Source: a virus
Length of the DNA: 24,176 bases
Virus record (IMG/VR): IMGVR_UViG_3300048834_000406
Coordinates: 1-24,176 of that record
Strand: one strand, 5' to 3'
The first letter of the stretch is position 1; each line of letters starts with the position of its first letter. Below are positions 3,991 to 22,766 of this stretch, one piece after another. The notes under the pieces were generated by a model. The model searched no databases and was not told where the DNA came from. It worked only from the letters and a program-made list of their open reading frames with translations. The position numbers and the translations under genes are program-made.

Positions 3991-4881
3991 TCAATACTTG
4001 ATGCACAGCTTCCAGGCCAGGTTGCGCGGCCTCGTCTCACCGCCCCGGCTGCCGGTGTTGGCGCCATAGACGTAGATGTTGTGGGCGTGGGTGCCGGCGT
4101 CGCCAATACCGACATTATGGCCGTGAGCGCCGGCGGCTTCTGTGTATTCGGTTCCAAGGCCACCGGATGAATGATTGGCGGTTCCGATGTAGCCGCCTGT
4201 GCTTGCTCCATTCCCTGTGCGCACTGGATGGGTATGCTCGCCTTGCGTGTCAGTCCAGGCGGCGTGGTTGTGGTTGCCCTGAGCGTCTGCCGCTGCGACG
4301 TGGCCGTGATCCTGGAACTGATGGTGCTGCCAGCTGCCGAAGACGCGACTTGCATCGGCGCCGCGACCAAGATCGGCGGCCCGGATGAACTCGCCCCTCG
4401 CATCGATCAGGGAGAAGGTGGTGGACCCGTTGCCGGGGCCGAACTGATGCGCCACCTTTCCGCCCTCTGTGCCGGCAAGCAATCCGCTGGCCTGGATAAA
4501 GTTCCACAGCGACGAGTAACTTGCTCGGGAAAATGTGGCCCCATTCAGGTCCAGCCAGCCGGGTTGGGTGACGGAAGACGGGAAGAAGGCGACAATACCC
4601 ACCGGTGCCAGAAGCGACGGCGACATGTTGGCCAGTGCCACCTCGATAGCGGCGCGATCCGCGGCGGCGGAGGTGGCAGCGGTTTGCGCCAGCACCCGTT
4701 GGGCGGTGACACCATCGCCATCGATATACTTGGGCAGCGACAGATAGGCGGAGACACCATCACCGATCCGAAACACCTTGGTATCGGTCTCATAGCAGGG
4801 CTCACCGGCCGAGGGTGTCGGGTTCACGGCCGTCCATTCGGCCAGAGTGCCTTGCCGAAGGCGATACTTGACGGTCGGCAT
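3991..4881 (-). CDS. Tail fibre protein with phage collar domain and HxH metal-binding motifs
   Basis: A 296-aa protein. The N-terminal 55 residues (YRLRQGTLAEWTAVNP, then GEPCYETDTKVFRIGDG) match the small beta domain found at the start of major tropism determinant and other receptor-binding proteins. Residues about 93-165 are a phage tail collar domain (PVGIVAFFPSS, GWLDLNG, FSLIDARGEFIRA). The C-terminal part has five HxH motifs (192-194, 204-206, 216-218, 253-255, 265-267), which in long tail fibres hold metal ions along the trimer axis. It ends ETRPRNLAWKLCIKY, the usual collar ending. ATG at 4881 overlaps the upstream stop as TGATG; GTG at 4884 is an alternative. It is probably the host-recognition fibre. 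Confidence 0.88.
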   Translation of the reverse strand: MPTVKYRLRQGTLAEWTAVNPTPSAGEPCYETDTKVFRIGDGVSAYLSLPKYIDGDGVTAQRVLAQTAATSAAADRAAIEVALANMSPSLLAPVGIVAFFPSSVTQPGWLDLNGATFSRASYSSLWNFIQASGLLAGTEGGKVAHQFGPGNGSTTFSLIDARGEFIRAADLGRGADASRVFGSWQHHQFQDHGHVAAADAQGNHNHAAWTDTQGEHTHPVRTGNGASTGGYIGTANHSSGGLGTEYTEAAGAHGHNVGIGDAGTHAHNIYVYGANTGSRGGETRPRNLAWKLCIKY

Positions 4882-5234
4882 CACACCACCCCCTTGATGA
4901 ATTCGCGTTCCGTGCGCCTGCGGGCGAAGCCGGAGGCGATGAAGAGTGCGAAGATGAGAAGCCCGGGCCAGAACGCATAGGCGGCGGTCGCCGCAGCGGT
5001 GGCGACGAAGGCGACATCCTCGAGGCTGTCCCAGGTGGCCCCGTCGAACAGCGCGATCTGGACCTGTTCAACCAGCACCCAATAGCCGATGGCGGCCACC
5101 CACCACGGGACGCCAAGGAAGACGGCGCCCACCCCAAAGACGAGGCCATGCAGAGATTGGTTGCGGAGATAGCCCCAGGGATCGGCGATGAAGCCGGACG
5201 GGGTTCGCAGCAGATTGAGCAACCATTTCAGCAT
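4881..5234 (-). CDS. Small membrane protein in the tail block (possible holin-type)
   Basis: A 117-aa protein starting at ATG 5234, which overlaps the preceding stop (TGATG). A longer form from 5267 would overlap the upstream gene further and is unlikely. Hydrophobic stretches at residues about 28-57 (LHGLVFGVGAVFLGVPWWVAA, then a Trp-rich turn) and 73-103 suggest two or three membrane spans, followed by a positively charged tail (ARRRTEREF). No family is recognised. Size, topology and basic C-terminus would fit a holin or other lysis-related membrane protein, but no endolysin or spanin is next to it; it lies between tail genes. The function is inference. Confidence 0.8.
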   Translation of the reverse strand: MLKWLLNLLRTPSGFIADPWGYLRNQSLHGLVFGVGAVFLGVPWWVAAIGYWVLVEQVQIALFDGATWDSLEDVAFVATAAATAAYAFWPGLLIFALFIASGFARRRTEREFIKGVV

Positions 5235-10478: not shown

Positions 10479-11579
10479 TCAGGCGTTCGGATCCTTGGCG
10501 TAGGTGTCCATCGCCAGCACACCGAAGTCCCGGTTGTTGAAGCGGGTCTTTTTCAGGCCCATGATGATGCCGGCGACAACGGTGGGTTCGTTGTCGTAGT
10601 CCTCCATCTCTTCTTTCCAGGTGAAGCGCTGGCCGCCGGGGGTGCCGTAGGCGATAACGCCCGCCTGACGGCCCATGAGGAGCGCACGAGCGGCGGGGAG
10701 GTTGGCGCCGGCACCGTAGTCGGAGAACCGGATGACGTTTTCATGGGAGTGGAGGACGGCATTGTTGATCATGCCGAGGCCACCCTTGAAGATCATCGAG
10801 TTCCGGCCCTCGGCCGTCGCCACCGCCTTCTGGATGTCCAGCCATTCGCCAGCGACGCTGGAGTTGCGCATGCTGTGTTCCTGGTAGGTCGACATCAACA
10901 CCACCAGGTGCGGGGCGCCATCCACATCGATCGGGACGATGTTGGTGGCTTCGGTGTCGACCGACCGCATCATCTTGACACGCACGATCGCGCGCTCGAT
11001 CAGCGACTTCGACATCACGTCGGACGTGGTGATGGTCGCTTTCGAAGTCGCCGAACCGCCGAACAGAAGGTGGGTGGCATCAGGGGCCTGCAGGGCGTTG
11101 CCAGCAAACCCGGTGTAGTCGGCGGGCTCGATGAACTCCTCGTTGATGCCGCGCGCACCCGACAGATAGACGAACTTGATTTCGTCCAGATAGGCGCGCC
11201 AGTAGTCGGTCAGACGGTCTTTTGCGACCTTGCGGAGGTCGTGAACCACCCGTTTCCGGCTCATTTTGCCGCCGGCGCTGACGGGGTGCCGCATCTGGTC
11301 GATGATGACCTCGTCCGAGAAGAAGCGTAGGGCTTCTTCCTTACCCTTCACCCGGTTGTCACCGAAGGTGGGCCGCTGGCGCAGCTGCACGGAGAGGTCG
11401 AAGCTGACGCGGTCGCCGGCGTCAGAGGCGATCTCCAGTTTTTCCTCGATGATGTTGTTGTCGCCCTTGCCCTCGAACTTGCGGGAGAAGTAGCCCTTGC
11501 GGTTCACATCGACGGCAAGGTTGGTGGACCATTTCTTCTGGGCTTTGGGGTCGCCCCACGCGATCACGGTCGTGGTCAT
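10479..11579 (-). CDS. Major capsid protein (N4-gp56 / DUF4043-like family)
   Basis: A 366-aa protein with the pattern of the N4-gp56 family of major capsid proteins. Its features are an early segment WGDPKAQKKWSTNLAVDV and KGYFSRKFEGKGDNNIIE, then GDRVSFDLSVQLRQRPTFGD, KEEALRFFSDEVIIDQMRHP, then the helix RLTDYWRAYLDEIKFVYLSG. A C-terminal KNDRDFGV-like end (KTRFNNRDFGVLAMDTY) closes it. It builds the icosahedral shell on the scaffold encoded upstream. ATG at 11579 has GAGAGG 6 bases ahead. A 108-bp gap with a possible promoter separates it from the CsrA-like gene, which may allow stronger expression. Confidence 0.92.
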   Translation of the reverse strand: MTTTVIAWGDPKAQKKWSTNLAVDVNRKGYFSRKFEGKGDNNIIEEKLEIASDAGDRVSFDLSVQLRQRPTFGDNRVKGKEEALRFFSDEVIIDQMRHPVSAGGKMSRKRVVHDLRKVAKDRLTDYWRAYLDEIKFVYLSGARGINEEFIEPADYTGFAGNALQAPDATHLLFGGSATSKATITTSDVMSKSLIERAIVRVKMMRSVDTEATNIVPIDVDGAPHLVVLMSTYQEHSMRNSSVAGEWLDIQKAVATAEGRNSMIFKGGLGMINNAVLHSHENVIRFSDYGAGANLPAARALLMGRQAGVIAYGTPGGQRFTWKEEMEDYDNEPTVVAGIIMGLKKTRFNNRDFGVLAMDTYAKDPNA

Positions 11580-11638
11580 GGTGTTGCCTCTCGCTAACGT
11601 TGCGTGAAGGCGCGTCCATGCACCATGTCATGGCCAAG

Positions 11639-11667
11639 GTTTTACCAGATGTTGCGCTTTGTGAAAA
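11639..11667 (-). promoter_or_regulatory. Candidate sigma70-type promoter for the capsid gene
   Basis: On the minus strand TTTTCA (11667-11662) and TAAAAC (11644-11639) are separated by 17 bases, and TGG precedes the second box as in an extended -10. Each box matches the consensus at 4 of 6 positions. Transcription would begin about 50-55 bases before the capsid ATG. The local AT-richness contrasts with the surrounding GC-rich genes. Confidence 0.35.
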
Positions 11668-11687
11668 GAGACACGCTATATGTTGTG

Positions 11688-11864
11688 TCAGGTTGAACCG
11701 GGCGGTGTGTTTTCCCCGCCCGGTTCATCGATCCGCCTGATTTGGACAGCCGCAGGCGCCAGGATGCGGAGCGCCATCTTGGAGTTGTGGTCGCGGGTGA
11801 CCTCGACCACCACATCATCACCGATGGCGATGCGCGTTCCGGGGCGGATCTTGAGTTGCAGCAC
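11688..11864 (-). CDS. csrA: CsrA/RsmA-like RNA-binding regulator
   Basis: A 58-aa minus-strand reading frame from GTG 11864, with AGGGGG 5 bases upstream, to TGA at 11688, not starting with ATG. Its first 47 residues align without gaps to E. coli CsrA as I recall it: ML-L, R7, G9, IGDDVVVEV (14-22), AP at 36-37, V40 and R44, about 15 identities. Leu4 and Arg44, the known RNA-contacting positions, are both kept. CsrA-family dimers bind GGA motifs in mRNA leaders and usually block or alter translation. It lies 12 bases after the scaffold stop and 108 bases before the capsid gene, so it is embedded in the head operon. The target is unknown; phage structural mRNAs or host mRNAs are both possible. 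Confidence 0.82.
   Translation of the reverse strand: MLQLKIRPGTRIAIGDDVVVEVTRDHNSKMALRILAPAAVQIRRIDEPGGENTPPGST
11694..11727 (-). promoter_or_regulatory. 12-bp hairpin with GGA in its loop, at the csrA-like 3' end
   Basis: TGAACCGGGCGG and CCGCCCGGTTCA form a perfect 12-bp stem around a 10-base loop starting GGAAAA on the minus strand. The structure overlaps the last codons of the csrA-like gene, just before its stop. There is no T-tract, so a terminator is doubtful. GGA in the loop of a hairpin is the form preferred by CsrA proteins, hence it may be an autoregulatory or transcript-protecting element. The pairing is directly visible; the function is inference. Confidence 0.45.
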
Positions 11865-11876
11865 CGTTGCCCCCTG

Positions 11877-12893
11877 TCAGATATCCAGCGAGGCGAAGTG
11901 ATCGCGCTCCTCTGGGGTCAGTGAGGCCATGATGCGTTCGGCCTCGGCCGCATCGGCCTTTTCCAGGCGATCTTGCAACTCGCCGAACCGGGTATCCCTG
12001 GTATTGGAGAGGCCGGCGGATGGCATCGTCTGGATGGTGACGGGCAGAGGCGGTTTTTCCGAGGGCGGCGGAGGTGCCTTCGGTTTCGCCGCCTTTGGGT
12101 CGGCTTGGGGATCGGGTGGTGGAGTCACCTTTTCGAGCGGGGGCGCCTTGATGCCAAGGGCCTCGGCCTCGACCAGGTAGCGTTTGTGGGCGAGTTCGAG
12201 GATCTGCCGCTGATCCAGCTTGGCCCTAAGCGCCTCATTGCCCAGGATGTCTTTGACATGCTGATCATAGGCGTTGACATGCGCCTCCTCGATCAGCCCG
12301 GGATGCTCGGTCAGGTAGGTGGTGGCCGCACGGTTGAAGCTGTCACGGTAGGCATCGAACTGCGCGGTAGCCGCATCCTCCACCGCCTTTTCATAGACCT
12401 CGACCAACTTGAGATCGGCCTTGGCCGCTGCTTCGCGATCCGCGATGTCCTGTTGTTCCTTCAGGTATTCTTCACGGGTGACCTCGCCATCTTCGTAGCG
12501 TTCAAACGCCTTTTCGCGGGCGGCCTTGGCCTCATCGATGATGGTTTGGGCCGCTTCTACGTCGACTTCGGGGCGCGGTGGCAGAACAGGCGCATCAGGC
12601 GGCGCAGATGTGATTGGTGGCTCGCTTTCGTCAGCTTCGGTAACGGCAGGCGGGGTTTTTTCGTCCGTCTCCGTCTGGCCTTCTTCGCCATCTTCACCCT
12701 CGTCCTGATCATCCTCAAGTGCGGCCCGCTCCTCATCGGTGAGGCGGGCCAGATCGGATTCGTCAAACTCATCGCCCTCGGGGATGTCGTCCTTGGGCAA
12801 GAGGCTGGAGAGGTCTTCTTCACCATCACCACTTGCAAGCGGATCGATGGTGTCGTCTTCGTCGTCCAGTGGCGGCGCTGATTTGTCGTTCAT
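11877..12893 (-). CDS. Capsid scaffolding protein
   Basis: A 338-aa protein starting at ATG 12893 with AAGGAG 6 bases upstream; the longer frame from 13046 overlaps the next gene and looks unnatural there. The N-terminal 110 residues are extremely acidic (LDDEDDTIDPLASGDGEEDL), then a Pro-rich stretch, a long charged helix (about 120-250) and a short basic/helical C-terminus with RDTRFGELQDRLEKADAAEA. This layout, at this place between portal and major capsid genes, is that of an internal scaffolding protein that directs procapsid assembly and leaves afterwards. I see no protease domain that would degrade it. Confidence rests on composition and position. Confidence 0.85.
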   Translation of the reverse strand: MNDKSAPPLDDEDDTIDPLASGDGEEDLSSLLPKDDIPEGDEFDESDLARLTDEERAALEDDQDEGEDGEEGQTETDEKTPPAVTEADESEPPITSAPPDAPVLPPRPEVDVEAAQTIIDEAKAAREKAFERYEDGEVTREEYLKEQQDIADREAAAKADLKLVEVYEKAVEDAATAQFDAYRDSFNRAATTYLTEHPGLIEEAHVNAYDQHVKDILGNEALRAKLDQRQILELAHKRYLVEAEALGIKAPPLEKVTPPPDPQADPKAAKPKAPPPPSEKPPLPVTIQTMPSAGLSNTRDTRFGELQDRLEKADAAEAERIMASLTPEERDHFASLDI

Positions 12894-12900
12894 CACAAAC

Positions 12901-12907
12901 TCCTTGT
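12901..12907 (-). promoter_or_regulatory. ACAAGGA element at the scaffold RBS
   Basis: The leader reads CAACAAGGAGTTTGTG before ATG at 12893. AAGGAG is the ribosome binding site and ACAAGGA matches the CsrA core ACARGGA, 7 bases ahead of ATG. Confidence 0.35.
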
Positions 12908-12915
12908 TGCAGGGC

Positions 12916-13197
12916 TCAGGTTGGGGTGGGTCCGTCTTCGGAAGCACAGACCGGATACCGGTAGAGGACGCGGTAGAGGTTTGCGCCGAGGTCAACGTCG
13001 ACACGAATGATGGTGGCCCCAGGCGGCAGACGGGTGTCTTGGTCACACCTGTCTGCTTGCCTGATGATCAACATCCCCAACGCCGACTCCGCACCAAGCG
13101 GCACATCCGGCGCTGGGTCTTCGGGATCGAGGTATTCGAGCAGCGTGGAAAACCGGAAGCTGCGCAGGGCCGCGAACATGGGATTGAGGCCGGGCAT
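12916..13197 (-). CDS. Small unknown protein between portal and scaffold
   Basis: A 93-aa protein whose ATG at 13197 overlaps the portal stop by one base (TAATG). The sequence begins MPGLNPMFAALRSFRFSTL and has a central ESALGMLIIRQADRCDQDTR and a beta-like end (TIIRVDVDLGANLYRVLYRYPV). There is no signal peptide, membrane span or recognised motif. The gene is 22 bases upstream of the scaffold ATG and is probably translationally coupled to the portal. It may be a portal-associated or head-assembly factor; no function is claimed. Confidence 0.72.
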   Translation of the reverse strand: MPGLNPMFAALRSFRFSTLLEYLDPEDPAPDVPLGAESALGMLIIRQADRCDQDTRLPPGATIIRVDVDLGANLYRVLYRYPVCASEDGPTPT

Positions 13198-15461
13198 TAC
13201 ACCATCTCCTGTTGAGGCGTGGGCTCAGGTGCCATCGGTGCTGGCGGCACCATCTGCGGGCTTGGCGGGGGTGGCATCGGGGCGGGCTGGGCCCCGGTGG
13301 TTTGCAGGAGCGCGTCGGCGGTATCGACGGCTGGCGCCGCCTCCATCATCTGGATCGCCAATTCCAGCGCCGTCTTCATGTCCGCCAGCTTTTCACGCGG
13401 CACGGTTTCGAGCGCGCGCTGGATATCGGCGCGCACCTTGTCGGTGTCGGTTGCGATCTTGGCTGCCTTGGCCTCGGTTTCGGCGGCTTTGGCCTCGATT
13501 GTCCGCAGGTTGGCCTCTTCCGCCCGGGCCGCCATCTGTGCCTGACGCTGCGCCTCGGCTTTCCTGGCCTCACGCTCGGGATCGGGGGTGTTGGGATCGG
13601 CGTCTGGGTCTTCCATGCCTGTGATCTGTCTGACCCGCTTGACCAATTCCTCGCCGTTGGGCAGGTCCATGGACTCGATGAGAAGATCGAGCATGACCAT
13701 GACGATCTGCGGGGCGACCGGTGCGATCTTGGCGGCCAGATCAAGGAATTGCTCGACGGCGGCCTGCCGCATGGTCGCGTTGTAGTCGTCCTCGGCGATC
13801 ACATAGTCGGCCTTGGACCTGACAATATCGTTCTCGGGCAACCCATCATTGACGGTGATGTAGTCGGGCACTCCGCGCTGGTTGGTGATGCGGAACTGCT
13901 TTTCCTCGGTGGTGAACTGTTCGATGAGGGAAAGCCGTTTTTCGCCATGAAACTGTCTGGCCATCCGCAGATTGTCGAAGATCGGGGCGGTGGACAGCGC
14001 GCCTTGCTGCTGGCGGGCGATGATGGCCTTGCCGGAAGAGGCGTTGGTGGTGCGGCCCAGGCTTTCATCGGTGACGCCGGACAGCGACTGAATCATGTTG
14101 GTGGACATGCCCATCAGTTCGAGGTGTGAAGCCGCCAACTCGCGCTCCGTCTTCATCTCGAACGCCCTGCCCACCTTCTTCACGATGATCGGATCGGGCC
14201 GGGCGGCTTCTTCCTCCAACTCATCGATATCCTCGACCGCTCCTTCATCCATGATGATGACGCGGCTGTTCAGGATGTATTGGGCCTTGGATAGCCGCTT
14301 GTTGATGTCGCGTTGGGCGTCCCGCATGTTGCGGATCACCCCATAGGGCGAGTTGTCCTTGGCCTTCCGGTAGGCGACCAGGGGCGTGAACGGGAAGCGG
14401 TTGTGCCGGTAGGGCGATGGTGACAGCCACAGCAGGCCGGTTGTGGTCATCACCGCCACATACATGCGGTAGACCACCTTCTTGATCAGCTTGGCGCGGC
14501 CGCTTTCGATGTCTTCGACATGGCCGGGGCTCCACGGATCATACAGTTCGCCGCGGAACTCGCCGCCCCGCATGCGATAGGTTTCCTCGGGCACCCGGAA
14601 CCATGCTTCGATCAGTCTTACCCGGTCCCGGCTGTAGCTGGGATGGTCGGTGGTGGTGCTGGAGAGTTGGACCACCTCTTCTTCGTGGCTGTCCATGGCG
14701 CTGTCGCCCATCCGGTCGAGGCTGGCGCCATAGTCGTGGTATCGGCTGATCGCGGAGTCGATGATGTGTTCGCGGCCCTTGAATGTGGCCCGGGCGAAGT
14801 CGCTATCCACCCATTTGGAGCGGAACATGAACCGGCCATCACCGCAGTCCAGATCGGTGGCGGCGGAATCGGCGAGCAAATTGCGCCAGCTGACGAAGCG
14901 GTCGAAGATGGGTTCGCCCTCGTCGTCGTCCTGAACGCCGCCCTCCATCCATGAAAGCCCGGCTTTGACCTGTTCGGCGAAGGCTCTGGACCAGTGGAAC
15001 TCCGCCATATTGGTGTCGTCCAGGTATTTCATCAGCGCCGTCTTCTTTTCGGCCGCCTGGGCGGTCTCTTGGCGGCGCGGCAGAATCTTGTAGTTGGTGC
15101 GGCCGCGTCGCTCCGTTCCGATGATCCAGTTGATGGATTGGGCGATCAGGTTGAACACCAGCGCTTCCTGTCCGCGCTGCTGCAGCTTCATCACATCCGC
15201 CGCTTCCCACTGGTCGTTGTCGTAAAACGCCTCATCCTTTTCCATCTCGCGACGGGCGCCCGACTGTTTCTCCAGTTCGCTCTGATAGAAGCTGATCAGC
15301 CGGCTCCAGATCGCCATGTTGGCGGGACTGTCCAGCTTGGATTTGGCGGCCTCGGCGATATCGCCCATCATGGTGTCGCTGGCCGGCTTGCGCTTGGGCA
15401 CCTGGAAGTTGGCGGGCGCCAAGGCAACCCTATCGGCAAGGGTGGAGGTGTCTTCACGCAT
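13197..15461 (-). CDS. Portal protein (P22 gp1-like)
   Basis: A 754-aa protein. The segment EKDEAFYDNDQWEAADV, then QQRGQEALVFNLIAQSINWI and GTERRGRTNYKILPR, is the hallmark of the P22-type portal family. The family's middle part follows (KAGLSWMEGG; FRFPFTPLVAYRKAKDN-like region; NKRLSKAQYILNSR; GRTTNASSGKAIIARQQQG). Residues about 640-710 form a long charged coiled coil (barrel/crown helix), followed by a Pro/Met/Gln tail. Twelve copies make the DNA channel at one capsid vertex and hold the packaging motor and tail. ATG at 15461 overlaps the preceding gene by 8 bases; the RBS contains ACAAGGA and a second AAGG closer to the ATG. Confidence 0.93.
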   Translation of the reverse strand: MREDTSTLADRVALAPANFQVPKRKPASDTMMGDIAEAAKSKLDSPANMAIWSRLISFYQSELEKQSGARREMEKDEAFYDNDQWEAADVMKLQQRGQEALVFNLIAQSINWIIGTERRGRTNYKILPRRQETAQAAEKKTALMKYLDDTNMAEFHWSRAFAEQVKAGLSWMEGGVQDDDEGEPIFDRFVSWRNLLADSAATDLDCGDGRFMFRSKWVDSDFARATFKGREHIIDSAISRYHDYGASLDRMGDSAMDSHEEEVVQLSSTTTDHPSYSRDRVRLIEAWFRVPEETYRMRGGEFRGELYDPWSPGHVEDIESGRAKLIKKVVYRMYVAVMTTTGLLWLSPSPYRHNRFPFTPLVAYRKAKDNSPYGVIRNMRDAQRDINKRLSKAQYILNSRVIIMDEGAVEDIDELEEEAARPDPIIVKKVGRAFEMKTERELAASHLELMGMSTNMIQSLSGVTDESLGRTTNASSGKAIIARQQQGALSTAPIFDNLRMARQFHGEKRLSLIEQFTTEEKQFRITNQRGVPDYITVNDGLPENDIVRSKADYVIAEDDYNATMRQAAVEQFLDLAAKIAPVAPQIVMVMLDLLIESMDLPNGEELVKRVRQITGMEDPDADPNTPDPEREARKAEAQRQAQMAARAEEANLRTIEAKAAETEAKAAKIATDTDKVRADIQRALETVPREKLADMKTALELAIQMMEAAPAVDTADALLQTTGAQPAPMPPPPSPQMVPPAPMAPEPTPQQEMV

Positions 15462-18995: not shown

Positions 18996-19181
18996 TCAAT
19001 TGGTGGTGCAGGTCATCATCCCCGAGTTGGGGTCTGTGATGCAGCTGGTGGTGGTTGTCGGTCCAAAGGTGCCGGACGATGAGCAGGTCACCAAGCCCGA
19101 GTTCGGATCGGTGATGCAGTTGGTGGTTTGCGCGGTGGCGGCGGTGGTGATCAGGACCAGGGCGATGATGAGGCGCGTCAT
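18996..19181 (-). CDS. Tiny secreted protein with duplicated CITDPNSG cysteine motif
   Basis: A 61-aa protein from ATG 19181 with GGGAG 6 bases upstream. Residues 1-17 are a signal peptide (RLIIALVLITTAATA, cleavage likely before Gln18). The mature part has two near-identical modules: CITDPNSGLVTC (22-33) and CITDPNSGMMTC (47-58), joined by a Ser/Gly/Thr spacer; each encloses a Cys pair 12 residues apart. This suggests two small disulfide loops in the periplasm. Short 'NCITDP'-type exported proteins are known, without function, in alphaproteobacteria and their phages (from memory). It sits in the accessory block and ends seven bases before the HTH-like gene. Confidence 0.8.
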   Translation of the reverse strand: MTRLIIALVLITTAATAQTTNCITDPNSGLVTCSSSGTFGPTTTTSCITDPNSGMMTCTTN

Positions 19182-19243
19182 TGGTGGCTCCCAATAATGT
19201 GGCCTAAGCACCCTAGTCCTGAATCGGTCGGCCAGACAACACC

Positions 19244-22071: not shown

Positions 22072-22665
22072 TCACCCTGTCAATACATCAAGCGGGATGC
22101 TGTTGACCTGATCCCCCCATGCCACCCATCCCGGTCGGGTGGTCCGGCTGAACACCTCGATCCTGCGGGCCTCGGGCATCAGCTTCTCAGCGGCGGCGAA
22201 GGCTTCATCTGGCTTCTGGCTGTGCGCCCTGACCGGCCCCTCGATCACGGATCGGACGGTGCGGGCGCATTTGGGATCACCGCGGCGGCCGATCAGGAAT
22301 GGCTCGCTGGCGCAGCGCAGGACGTATCCGGTTCCGAATGCGATCTTGCCGTGCTTGGTGCGCTTCACCCACGTCCCTGATGTGGTGAAGCTGAACCCCC
22401 AAGCCGCCATGACCTCCAGCGCCTGCGGCAGCATCGGATTGGTCGCCCACAGCCAAAGCAAGCAGTTCTCGGCGGCCAAGGCGTCCATGGGTAGCGCCTT
22501 GATCCAGTCCAGCGGCTGGCACTCATACTGCGCCGATGGATTCTTCGCTTCACCCCGCGCCGACCAGTTCGCAAAACTCCACGGCGGATCGACCATAATC
22601 AGATCGAAACCGCCGAACGGCCTCAGATCGGCCCAGGCGCGGATGATGGCGGGATCGGGCTTCAT
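22072..22665 (-). CDS. MT-A70-type adenine-N6 methyltransferase
   Basis: A 197-aa protein from ATG 22665 (GTG at 22674 is rejected because the GGAG lies one base from it). The catalytic DPPW motif (residues 26-29, in DLIMVDPPWSFANWS) identifies an MT-A70-like N6-adenine methyltransferase. The segments ENCLLWLWATNPML, SGTWVKRTKHGKIAFGTGYV and PVRAHSQKPDEAF follow the family. It uses S-adenosylmethionine to methylate adenine in DNA (possibly RNA). No paired restriction enzyme is seen, so it is probably a solitary phage methylase for protection against host restriction or for regulation. ATG overlaps the stop of the 34-aa ORF (ATGA). Confidence 0.9.
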   Translation of the reverse strand: MKPDPAIIRAWADLRPFGGFDLIMVDPPWSFANWSARGEAKNPSAQYECQPLDWIKALPMDALAAENCLLWLWATNPMLPQALEVMAAWGFSFTTSGTWVKRTKHGKIAFGTGYVLRCASEPFLIGRRGDPKCARTVRSVIEGPVRAHSQKPDEAFAAAEKLMPEARRIEVFSRTTRPGWVAWGDQVNSIPLDVLTG

Positions 22666-22766
22666 CCGGTGCACTCTCCATCATTGGCCTGGCAGAGCGC
22701 GCCGACCTTCACGAGGCTGTCAAAGCCGGGACATGTCCCGGTCTTGTCCCGCCCTGTCCCGGTCAT
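22662..22766 (-). CDS. Tiny 34-aa ORF, coupled on both sides
   Basis: Sequence MTGTGRDKTGTCPGFDSLVK then VGALCQANDGECTG; starts at ATG 22766, overlapping the preceding stop (ATGA), with GAGGTGG upstream, and its stop overlaps the methylase ATG. Three cysteines; no known family. Such tight coupling suggests real translation, but the DNA here is also repetitive (TGTCCCG repeats and a palindrome), so it may be a translated leader across a binding site rather than a functional protein. Confidence 0.5.
   Translation of the reverse strand: MTGTGRDKTGTCPGFDSLVKVGALCQANDGECTG
22726..22761. promoter_or_regulatory. Palindrome and phased TGTCCCG repeats (operator-like)
   Basis: A perfect 16-bp palindrome CCGGGACATGTCCCGG (22726-22741) is joined to two further TGTCCCG copies at 22745 and 22755; the three copies start 11 and 10 bases apart, so they face the same side of the helix. 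This is the usual form of a protein-binding site. It lies within the 34-aa ORF just upstream of the methyltransferase gene. Confidence 0.45.

Follow-up and report, generated by a model that had tools for sequence, protein, structure and literature searches.

A CsrA-like gene beside the capsid gene of a Bcep22-like podophage fragment and its predicted RNA target in the capsid leader

Phage-encoded translational regulation of phage mRNAs is familiar from T4 RegA, a protein unrelated to CsrA that represses early mRNAs. A catalogue of 30 csrA-bearing phages, including Bcep22, DC1, Parlo, PEp14 and SopranoGao, was published in 2020 by Sobrero and Valverde (PMC7366521). In Bcep22-like podophages (JC1 gp47, BcepIL02 gp49, Pavtok gp9, LASTA gp20, Skulduggery gp12) the gene lies ∼100 nt before the capsid gene, and it has been published as a moron of unknown role in JC1 and CSP3 (PMC9144972, PMC10269572). 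According to the CRISPRi-ART paper, the role of phage csrA in the life cycle was untested before its own plaque assay; knock-down of the homologue of coliphage PTXU04 (gp28) gives smaller plaques (PMC11879866). Here we describe a gene of the CsrA family in the same slot of IMG/VR record IMGVR_UViG_3300048834_000406 (24,176 nt, all of which was analysed and is called the window), together with a hairpin (P1) in the leader of the neighbouring capsid gene as its candidate RNA target.

The bacterial parallels are E. coli CsrA on ymdA (and moaA) and RsmA on phz2, where binding relieves a fold that hides the Shine-Dalgarno (SD) sequence, a known mechanism (PMC7652899); the phage differs in repeating one hairpin type over several late genes and in encoding its own CsrA in the late operon. 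In the RsmE-hcnA and RsmN-RsmZ complexes ANGGA lies in a hairpin loop with Arg44/62 on the first G, and in the RsmN-RNA structure Arg62, the equivalent of Arg44, touches N7 of the first G of GGA while R62A binds >1000-fold weaker (PMC3791407). In contrast, 41 of 78 phage records compared here lack both Arg44 and that first G, which points to shifted specificity. The gene and its position are already known in Bcep22-like podophages, whereas its target in the leader is apparently new. Among the open-licence papers listed by the literature searches none was seen to describe this leader, the JC1 paper (PMC9144972) contains no mention of a hairpin, stem-loop, promoter, untranslated or leader region, and the POI1126 paper mentions no CsrA, promoter or hairpin. 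By sequence comparison neither the kind of gene nor its place is novel; the target, not named before, appears to be supported down to a single residue and a single base.

We propose, with somewhat better than even confidence, that the phage CsrA regulates the phage's own late mRNAs through P1 and activates them by excluding an alternative fold, P2. A CsrA-family protein dedicated to the phage would act on P1, which presumably lies close to the 5′ end of the capsid mRNA; in relatives it would likewise act on lysis, darB and other virion transcripts. The unbound leader would prefer P2, in which the hairpin loop and 3′ arm pair with the SD/start-codon region; CsrA on the P1 loop would prevent P2 and so expose the start site, and CsrA made from the late operon would thereby switch on or boost translation of the capsid and lysis genes. 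The computed results behind this reading concern CsrA membership, conserved synteny, the P1 motif, P2 pairing, the link of Arg44 to the loop base, and the loop type shared within genomes. The elements concerned are:

11688..11864, minus strand: csrA-like gene, 58 amino acids, GTG start; Leu4, Arg7 and Arg44 kept, Ile at position 6
10479..11579, minus strand: major capsid protein (Phage_capsid_3, profile match), presumed cis-linked target
11609..11624, minus strand: leader hairpin P1, GGUGC-AUGGAC-GCGCC, with a 5-bp stem, an ANGGAN hexaloop and its GGA at 11617-11615; homologous hairpins in relatives
11568..11626, minus strand: capsid-gene leader able to form P2, in which the hairpin loop and 3′ arm pair with the ribosome-binding/start-codon region; minimum free energy -21.0, z -2.8
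11587..11592, minus strand: SD-like GAGAGG of the capsid gene, paired in P2; predicted pairing 0.82 free and 0.50 with P1 forced

An earlier note, made from the sequence alone, had called the small protein a CsrA/RsmA-like regulator, and both profile search and modelling agree. PF02599 (Pfam CsrA) matched the window protein with 33.4 bits (E 4.4e-8, curated cut-off 27); the match covers residues 1-44 and thus stops short of the 47 given in the note. The residues it listed as kept (IGDD, AP, Leu4 and Arg44) are all present. PHROG families named CsrA-like or transcriptional regulator matched weakly (best E 1e-4), and the NCBIfam csrA equivalogs (TIGR00202/NF002469) fell below cut-off (14.4 vs 70.1 and 19 vs 73 bits), which marks the protein as a divergent CsrA-family member rather than an orthologue of bacterial csrA. 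An AlphaFold2 monomer model from 33 homologues (pLDDT 84.3, pTM 0.59) was searched with Foldseek, and the first 15 PDB matches were all CsrA/RsmA/RsmE chains (best TM 0.73, root-mean-square deviation 0.7 over 44 columns; best E 1.7e-3, with no PDB match reaching E 0.001). Judged from this monomer model, the window protein has the CsrA fold, in keeping with its family membership. Sequences within the phage group are distant, the PEp14 and Parlo proteins being ∼30% identical to that of the window and Skulduggery 39% over 52 amino acids. Among 54 distinct phage CsrA-like proteins, Arg44 is present in 30, Leu4 in 22 and a basic residue 7 in 48, position 5 is acidic in 37, and position 6 is L, I, V or M in all (Ile in the window). 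RsmN has an intersubunit salt bridge, Arg8-Glu64, equivalent to Arg6-Glu46 of CsrA (PMC3791407); the Arg6 side of this bridge is absent in the window protein and in all 54 phage sequences.

The 58-amino-acid GTG-start frame between scaffold and capsid genes was confirmed as an open frame (11864-11688, minus strand) in the same slot as in the Bcep22-like phages, with AGGGGG read directly from the sequence just 5′ of the GTG. The stop of the scaffold-position open reading frame (ORF) lies 12 nt before the csrA GTG, and the gap from csrA to the capsid gene is 108 nt. The window order of portal, scaffold, csrA and capsid is that of the csrA loci of Bcep22-like phages, and the genes it holds (P22-like portal, Phage_capsid_3, terminase subunits), together with their arrangement, mark the window as a piece of such a podophage. 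The two genes upstream of csrA are:

11877..13046, minus strand: scaffold-position gene, directly upstream of csrA (PHROG 8246, function not assigned; start uncertain)
13197..15461, minus strand: P22-like portal protein (profile match)

Relatives were gathered with the capsid protein as query; the small csrA protein alone found no related loci. The resulting 101 loci with a capsid match comprise 80 from IMG/VR, 20 named phages and the window, some being one genome twice (L019/PEp14, L033/Parlo). A CsrA-like ORF ends ≤700 nt upstream of the capsid gene in 61 of the 101, at 80-145 nt in 53 of these 61. All 31 IMG/VR records of ≥54 kb carry a CsrA-like ORF (15 + 12 + 4 in three successive searches; most of the group of 12 fall below the Pfam cut-off, E reaching 0.003, and the 31 include second copies of PEp14 and Parlo). 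Eighteen named phages, with capsid proteins 58-66% identical to that of the window, were inspected, and in 13 the interval from the scaffold-position gene to the capsid gene contains one whose annotation reads CsrA-like or carbon storage regulator; the regulator is therefore not "hidden" in the head operon, as the note had put it, nor is it unusual for this group of phages. One or two extra small ORFs lie between the scaffold-position gene and csrA in DC1, BcepMigl, BcepIL02 and CSP3. The gene is unannotated or "hypothetical" in Stean, POI1126, Atu_ph08 and PBC5, where it was recovered by search, and Mwe-JY07 has a weak CsrA-like match only (E 0.004-0.007). In PBC5 and Atu_ph08 csrA remains next to the scaffold-position gene and the capsid gene is located elsewhere. 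No CsrA-like gene was found in the more distant relatives KLEP18-1 and RHph_Y1_10 (capsid 33% identity), and locus L008, though a closer relative, has neither a CsrA-like ORF nor a leader hairpin on its short contig.

P1 lies in the csrA-capsid gap with its GGA 38 nt before the capsid ATG, and its loop, ANGGAN, is the canonical CsrA hexaloop. Close relatives have GGUGC-AUGGAU-GCGCC or GGGC-AUGGAA/U-GUCC, and most others GCGC-AnGA(n)-GUGC. The stem-loop pattern was found in 92/101 capsid leaders, against a mean of 0.5 in shuffled leaders (maximum 3/101) and 0 on the opposite strand; six further capsid leaders have a variant recognized by eye, and those of L008, KLEP18-1 and RHph_Y1_10 have no such hairpin. 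The window-type pattern has a single match in the window, where 0.08 would be expected, and a single match in the records of each of 7 of 12 close relatives. Within the window the strict pattern finds no second CsrA hairpin beyond the leader, the loose pattern gives four matches including the leader (5.9 expected), and an Rfam scan of 11400-11900 gave no match near the gathering score. Across 55 non-redundant capsid leaders, P1 pairs 1-4 are required by the search pattern and their 55/55 is by construction; among outer pairs 5-9 only pair 6 stands out (35/55 vs 24.4 expected, p 0.001). Own versus swapped P1 arms gave z -7.2, a value biased since the pattern demands pairs 1-4. The G-U pair at the second step of P1 is kept in 52/55 leaders.

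Upstream of the hairpin lies a further element, found by eye in comparison with relatives:

11638..11647, minus strand: weak -10-like stretch TGGTAAAACC

A -10-like sequence with ≥4/6 matches precedes 46/55 leaders (mean 4.24 vs 3.72 when shuffled), which places P1 probably near the transcript 5′ end. Repeats or palindromes (ACAACATATAG/ACAACATCTGG; CCACATGTGGTAT in L013) were also seen upstream of the hairpin in the window (11638-11687, minus strand) and in L005-L011, L013, L018 and L020; these stretches near the -10 are possibly a late transcription-factor site.

The association between residue 44 and the loop base was first spotted by eye and then tested, with a ranking of 91 residue/position tests as the check. 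Among 78 records, 30 have both Arg44 and a loop GGA, 41 have neither, 4 have Arg only and 3 GGA only (Fisher 5.7e-14); after dereplication at 95% capsid identity (56 records) the counts are 22/30/1/3 (Fisher 2.3e-11). No row of the 78 was dropped, the six loops missed by the pattern being scored by eye (L037 and L067 as GGA; L012, L068, L069 and L081 not), and residue 44 in the rhizobial proteins and L072 relies on a gapped alignment. Arg44 came first of the 91 by Fisher test, with the runner-up (3.4e-5) six orders of magnitude behind. A Pagel-type dependent model on the capsid-protein tree gave a likelihood-ratio test (LRT) of 25.3 (p 4e-5); among 24 residue tests fitted on the tree Arg44 was top with an LRT of 23.9 (next 14.2), a value reached by 0/100 simulations of independent traits (maximum 16.9), and coding Arg or Lys together at position 44 lowered the LRT to 18.5. 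Furthermore, leaders of one genome tend to agree in loop type: of 38 pairs from 21 genomes 31 match, where 16.5 would be expected (p 2e-4), the seven contrary pairs coming from Skulduggery, Itty13, L018, L044 and L074. Binding of CsrA to P1, as predicted from these sequence comparisons, appears well supported but indirectly so. All leaders examined in L029 (G037; four) and L072 (G019; three) are GGA-looped though residue 44 is His/Ile, and in these another residue may take over the G contact.

P1 and P2 are mutually exclusive because the 3′ arm of the hairpin is shared. Examples of P2 pairing are GGAUGUGC with GCACAUCC in BcepMigl, GGAAGUGCUC with GAGCACUUCC in L036 and CAUGG with CCAUG in the window. 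For the 55 capsid leaders, P2 pairing averaged -13.0 kcal/mol with the own partner, -8.9 with swapped partners (standard deviation 0.34, z -12 for own against swapped) and -7.2 after shuffling, and a control segment 5′ of the hairpin showed no own-versus-swapped excess (z 0.5). In 33 leaders of other genes the values were -13.0 own and -9.8 swapped (z -7.1), and whole-leader folding of seven relatives gave z -2.5 to -4.9. A fold hiding the start region, as in SD-sequestered leaders of the ymdA kind, is thus predicted, and own-versus-swapped pairing supports it. The own-partner pairing of P2 and the kept G-U pair of P1 suggest that the leader acts as RNA rather than as a DNA operator.

The hairpin is not confined to capsid genes. 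A general form of the motif was matched 120 times across 45 records, 40 of which had between one and 6 matches, against 22 for the reversed pattern. Of 50 motif matches in 43 loci, two are capsid leaders and 38 others precede an SD-preceded ORF of ≥60 codons starting ≤60 nt away. Seven of the 43 loci (8 matches, lying within a gene or lacking a start close by) were excluded by eye before the leader analysis, and three plus-strand matches of L091 and L092 were skipped; from the 39 remaining in the set of other leaders, 38 were kept, 35 were non-redundant and 33 were left after dropping two with a misassigned start. Genes annotated as endolysin/lysozyme are preceded by the hairpin in Pavtok, Itty13, Skulduggery, POI1126, Atu_ph08 and PBC5; the hairpin-preceded ORF of ZX1 is 53% identical to the endolysin/lysozyme of Pavtok, and that of SopranoGao is alike by eye. 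The same hairpin stands before darB in POI1126, Atu_ph08 and PBC5 and before a POI1126 virion protein 44% identical to window ORF 3542-2607. The motif overlaps the annotated start in Pavtok, in POI1126 gp26 and in the capsid gene of Atu_ph08; in these cases the next ATG was used. Second motif matches in JC1 and BcepMigl were rejected as leaders, lying inside darB or its reading frame, and several further matches fall inside other ORFs. A scan of two csrA phages of other groups gave 0 matches in Pondi, a coliphage whose csrA is about as similar to the query as that of PTXU04 and lies in another gene context, and 1 in phi297. In loci where csrA has relocated, the capsid gene still has the hairpin in front of it, which is what a factor acting in trans would predict. 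In L091 and L092 (Atu_ph08 and PBC5) the capsid and endolysin genes are divergent, each with its own copy of the hairpin leader. The suggestion in the note that the regulator tunes capsid:scaffold:portal ratios fits the capsid-leader hairpin as far as a role in head-gene expression goes; it is too narrow given the hairpins before lysis, darB and virion genes.

It would be an even call whether Bcep22-like phages as a group share a self-contained late-gene switch, made up of the phage's CsrA and a two-state leader that recurs ahead of capsid, lysis, darB and virion genes, in which protein and loop have co-evolved and about half of the family has moved off GGA to read AUGA/AAGA loops, a private code even in hosts without csrA. 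The target itself can be proposed base by base from the letters alone, in the capsid-leader hairpin and, in relatives, the lysis leader. If true, this would explain why csrA rides in the structural operon, and it would provide a directly testable phage-encoded translational timer and a naturally occurring set of CsrA variants whose RNA specificity has changed.

Several results weigh against the proposed regulation through P1. P1 is absent from the minimum-energy fold in 54/55 leaders, and forcing it cuts mean SD pairing just from 0.68 to 0.59 (14 leaders freed by >0.2, 2 changed in the opposite direction); with P2-type folds winning by energy and P1 alone freeing the SD modestly, the switch would depend on a bound protein to have any real effect. 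P1 covariation, counted on a MAFFT alignment of 16 rows, was not above shuffles (249/500 for cells paired, 189/500 for score) and that of P2 was weak (2/500 for score, 19/500 for cells paired, 305/500 for both-sides changes), a kind of pair counting ill-suited to these leaders, in which loop length shifts the register. The window's own P2, at -7.7, is among the weaker ones. The Pavtokviruses (4 records) keep Arg44 yet have AUGAC loops, L029, L072 and L079 have GGA loops without Arg44, the lysozyme leader of Skulduggery (Arg44) has the loop AUGAU, the second leader of L018 (Asn44) has AGGAU, and loop types are mixed in Itty13, L044 and L074. Physical binding, activation and timing are what we infer, and activation would be the simplest reading of the direction of regulation.

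Repression by the same protein through the same leader, which we hold to be unlikely though worth serious attention, would have a dimer bridge the loop GGA and a second site at the SD, keeping the capsid and lysis messages off until dilution or titration of CsrA. Of 27 GGA-loop leaders, 18 do have a further GGA within the 20 nt that precede the ATG, a placement also seen in repressed targets, and this counts against activation too; however, the other 9, the window's included, are without a second GGA, and the P2 stem already hides the start region, so that an added repressor would be redundant. It is rather improbable that the hairpin and P2 are read by something else (RNase E/III, 5′-end stability, a host factor or a transcription regulator) while the CsrA-like protein acts elsewhere. 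Such a reader would suit leaders that follow a -10-like sequence with P1 probably near the 5′ end, and that are kept in phages with R44-less proteins, but Arg44, the known contact of the first G, is the residue that best tracks that base, the csrA-like gene is present throughout the long records, and the two 33%-identity capsid relatives without it are also without the capsid-leader hairpin.

We give little credence to a CsrA-fold virion or morphogenesis protein that works with the scaffold and is not an RNA regulator, even though purified JC1 virions yielded gp47 in mass spectrometry (PMC9144972), csrA in PBC5 and Atu_ph08 has remained next to the scaffold-position gene and far from the capsid gene, and Arg44 is lost in 24/54 members: the JC1 detection was a single unique peptide, called not definitive by its authors (PMC9144972), and the loss of Arg44 tracks the RNA loop while a basic residue 7 is kept in 48/54. 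Least credible of all is a moron gene retuning the host Csr/Rsm network (metabolism, biofilm, CRISPR control). In its favour, the publications on JC1 and CSP3 regard the gene as a moron and enumerate what CsrA does in hosts (PMC9144972, PMC10269572), and Serratia CRISPR-Cas is under host Rsm/Csr control (PMC8450108). A host-directed role is unlikely because no CsrA above the Pfam cut-off was found in 10 alphaproteobacterial genomes holding relatives (at least three of them metagenome-assembled genomes (MAGs), some drafts); moreover, the gene is part of the late operon and is closely followed by a site of the CsrA type. On the same ground the host-metabolism moron was rejected, and the proposal in the note that the protein diverts host metabolism found no support, B. 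cepacia and B. cenocepacia, hosts of several relatives, also being without a chromosomal csrA (PMC7366521). Two of the ten genomes have weak CsrA hits, that of Sediminimonas falling at the prophage's own csrA. An eleventh genome, a planctomycete MAG, has five CsrA matches over cut-off, and its phage contig was probably misbinned.

Elsewhere in the window, all on the minus strand, a 71-amino-acid ORF at 18996-19211 shows, by eye, what looks like a signal sequence and the motif CITDPNSGxxTC twice; its only profile match, to metallothionein, is sub-threshold. An MT-A70-type adenine methyltransferase family protein is encoded at 22072-22674 (112 bits), a tail-fibre-like protein that combines Mtd_N at its N terminus with a collar domain at 3991-4884, and a phage tail lysozyme domain (Phage_lysozyme2, 110 bits) at 1559-2233.
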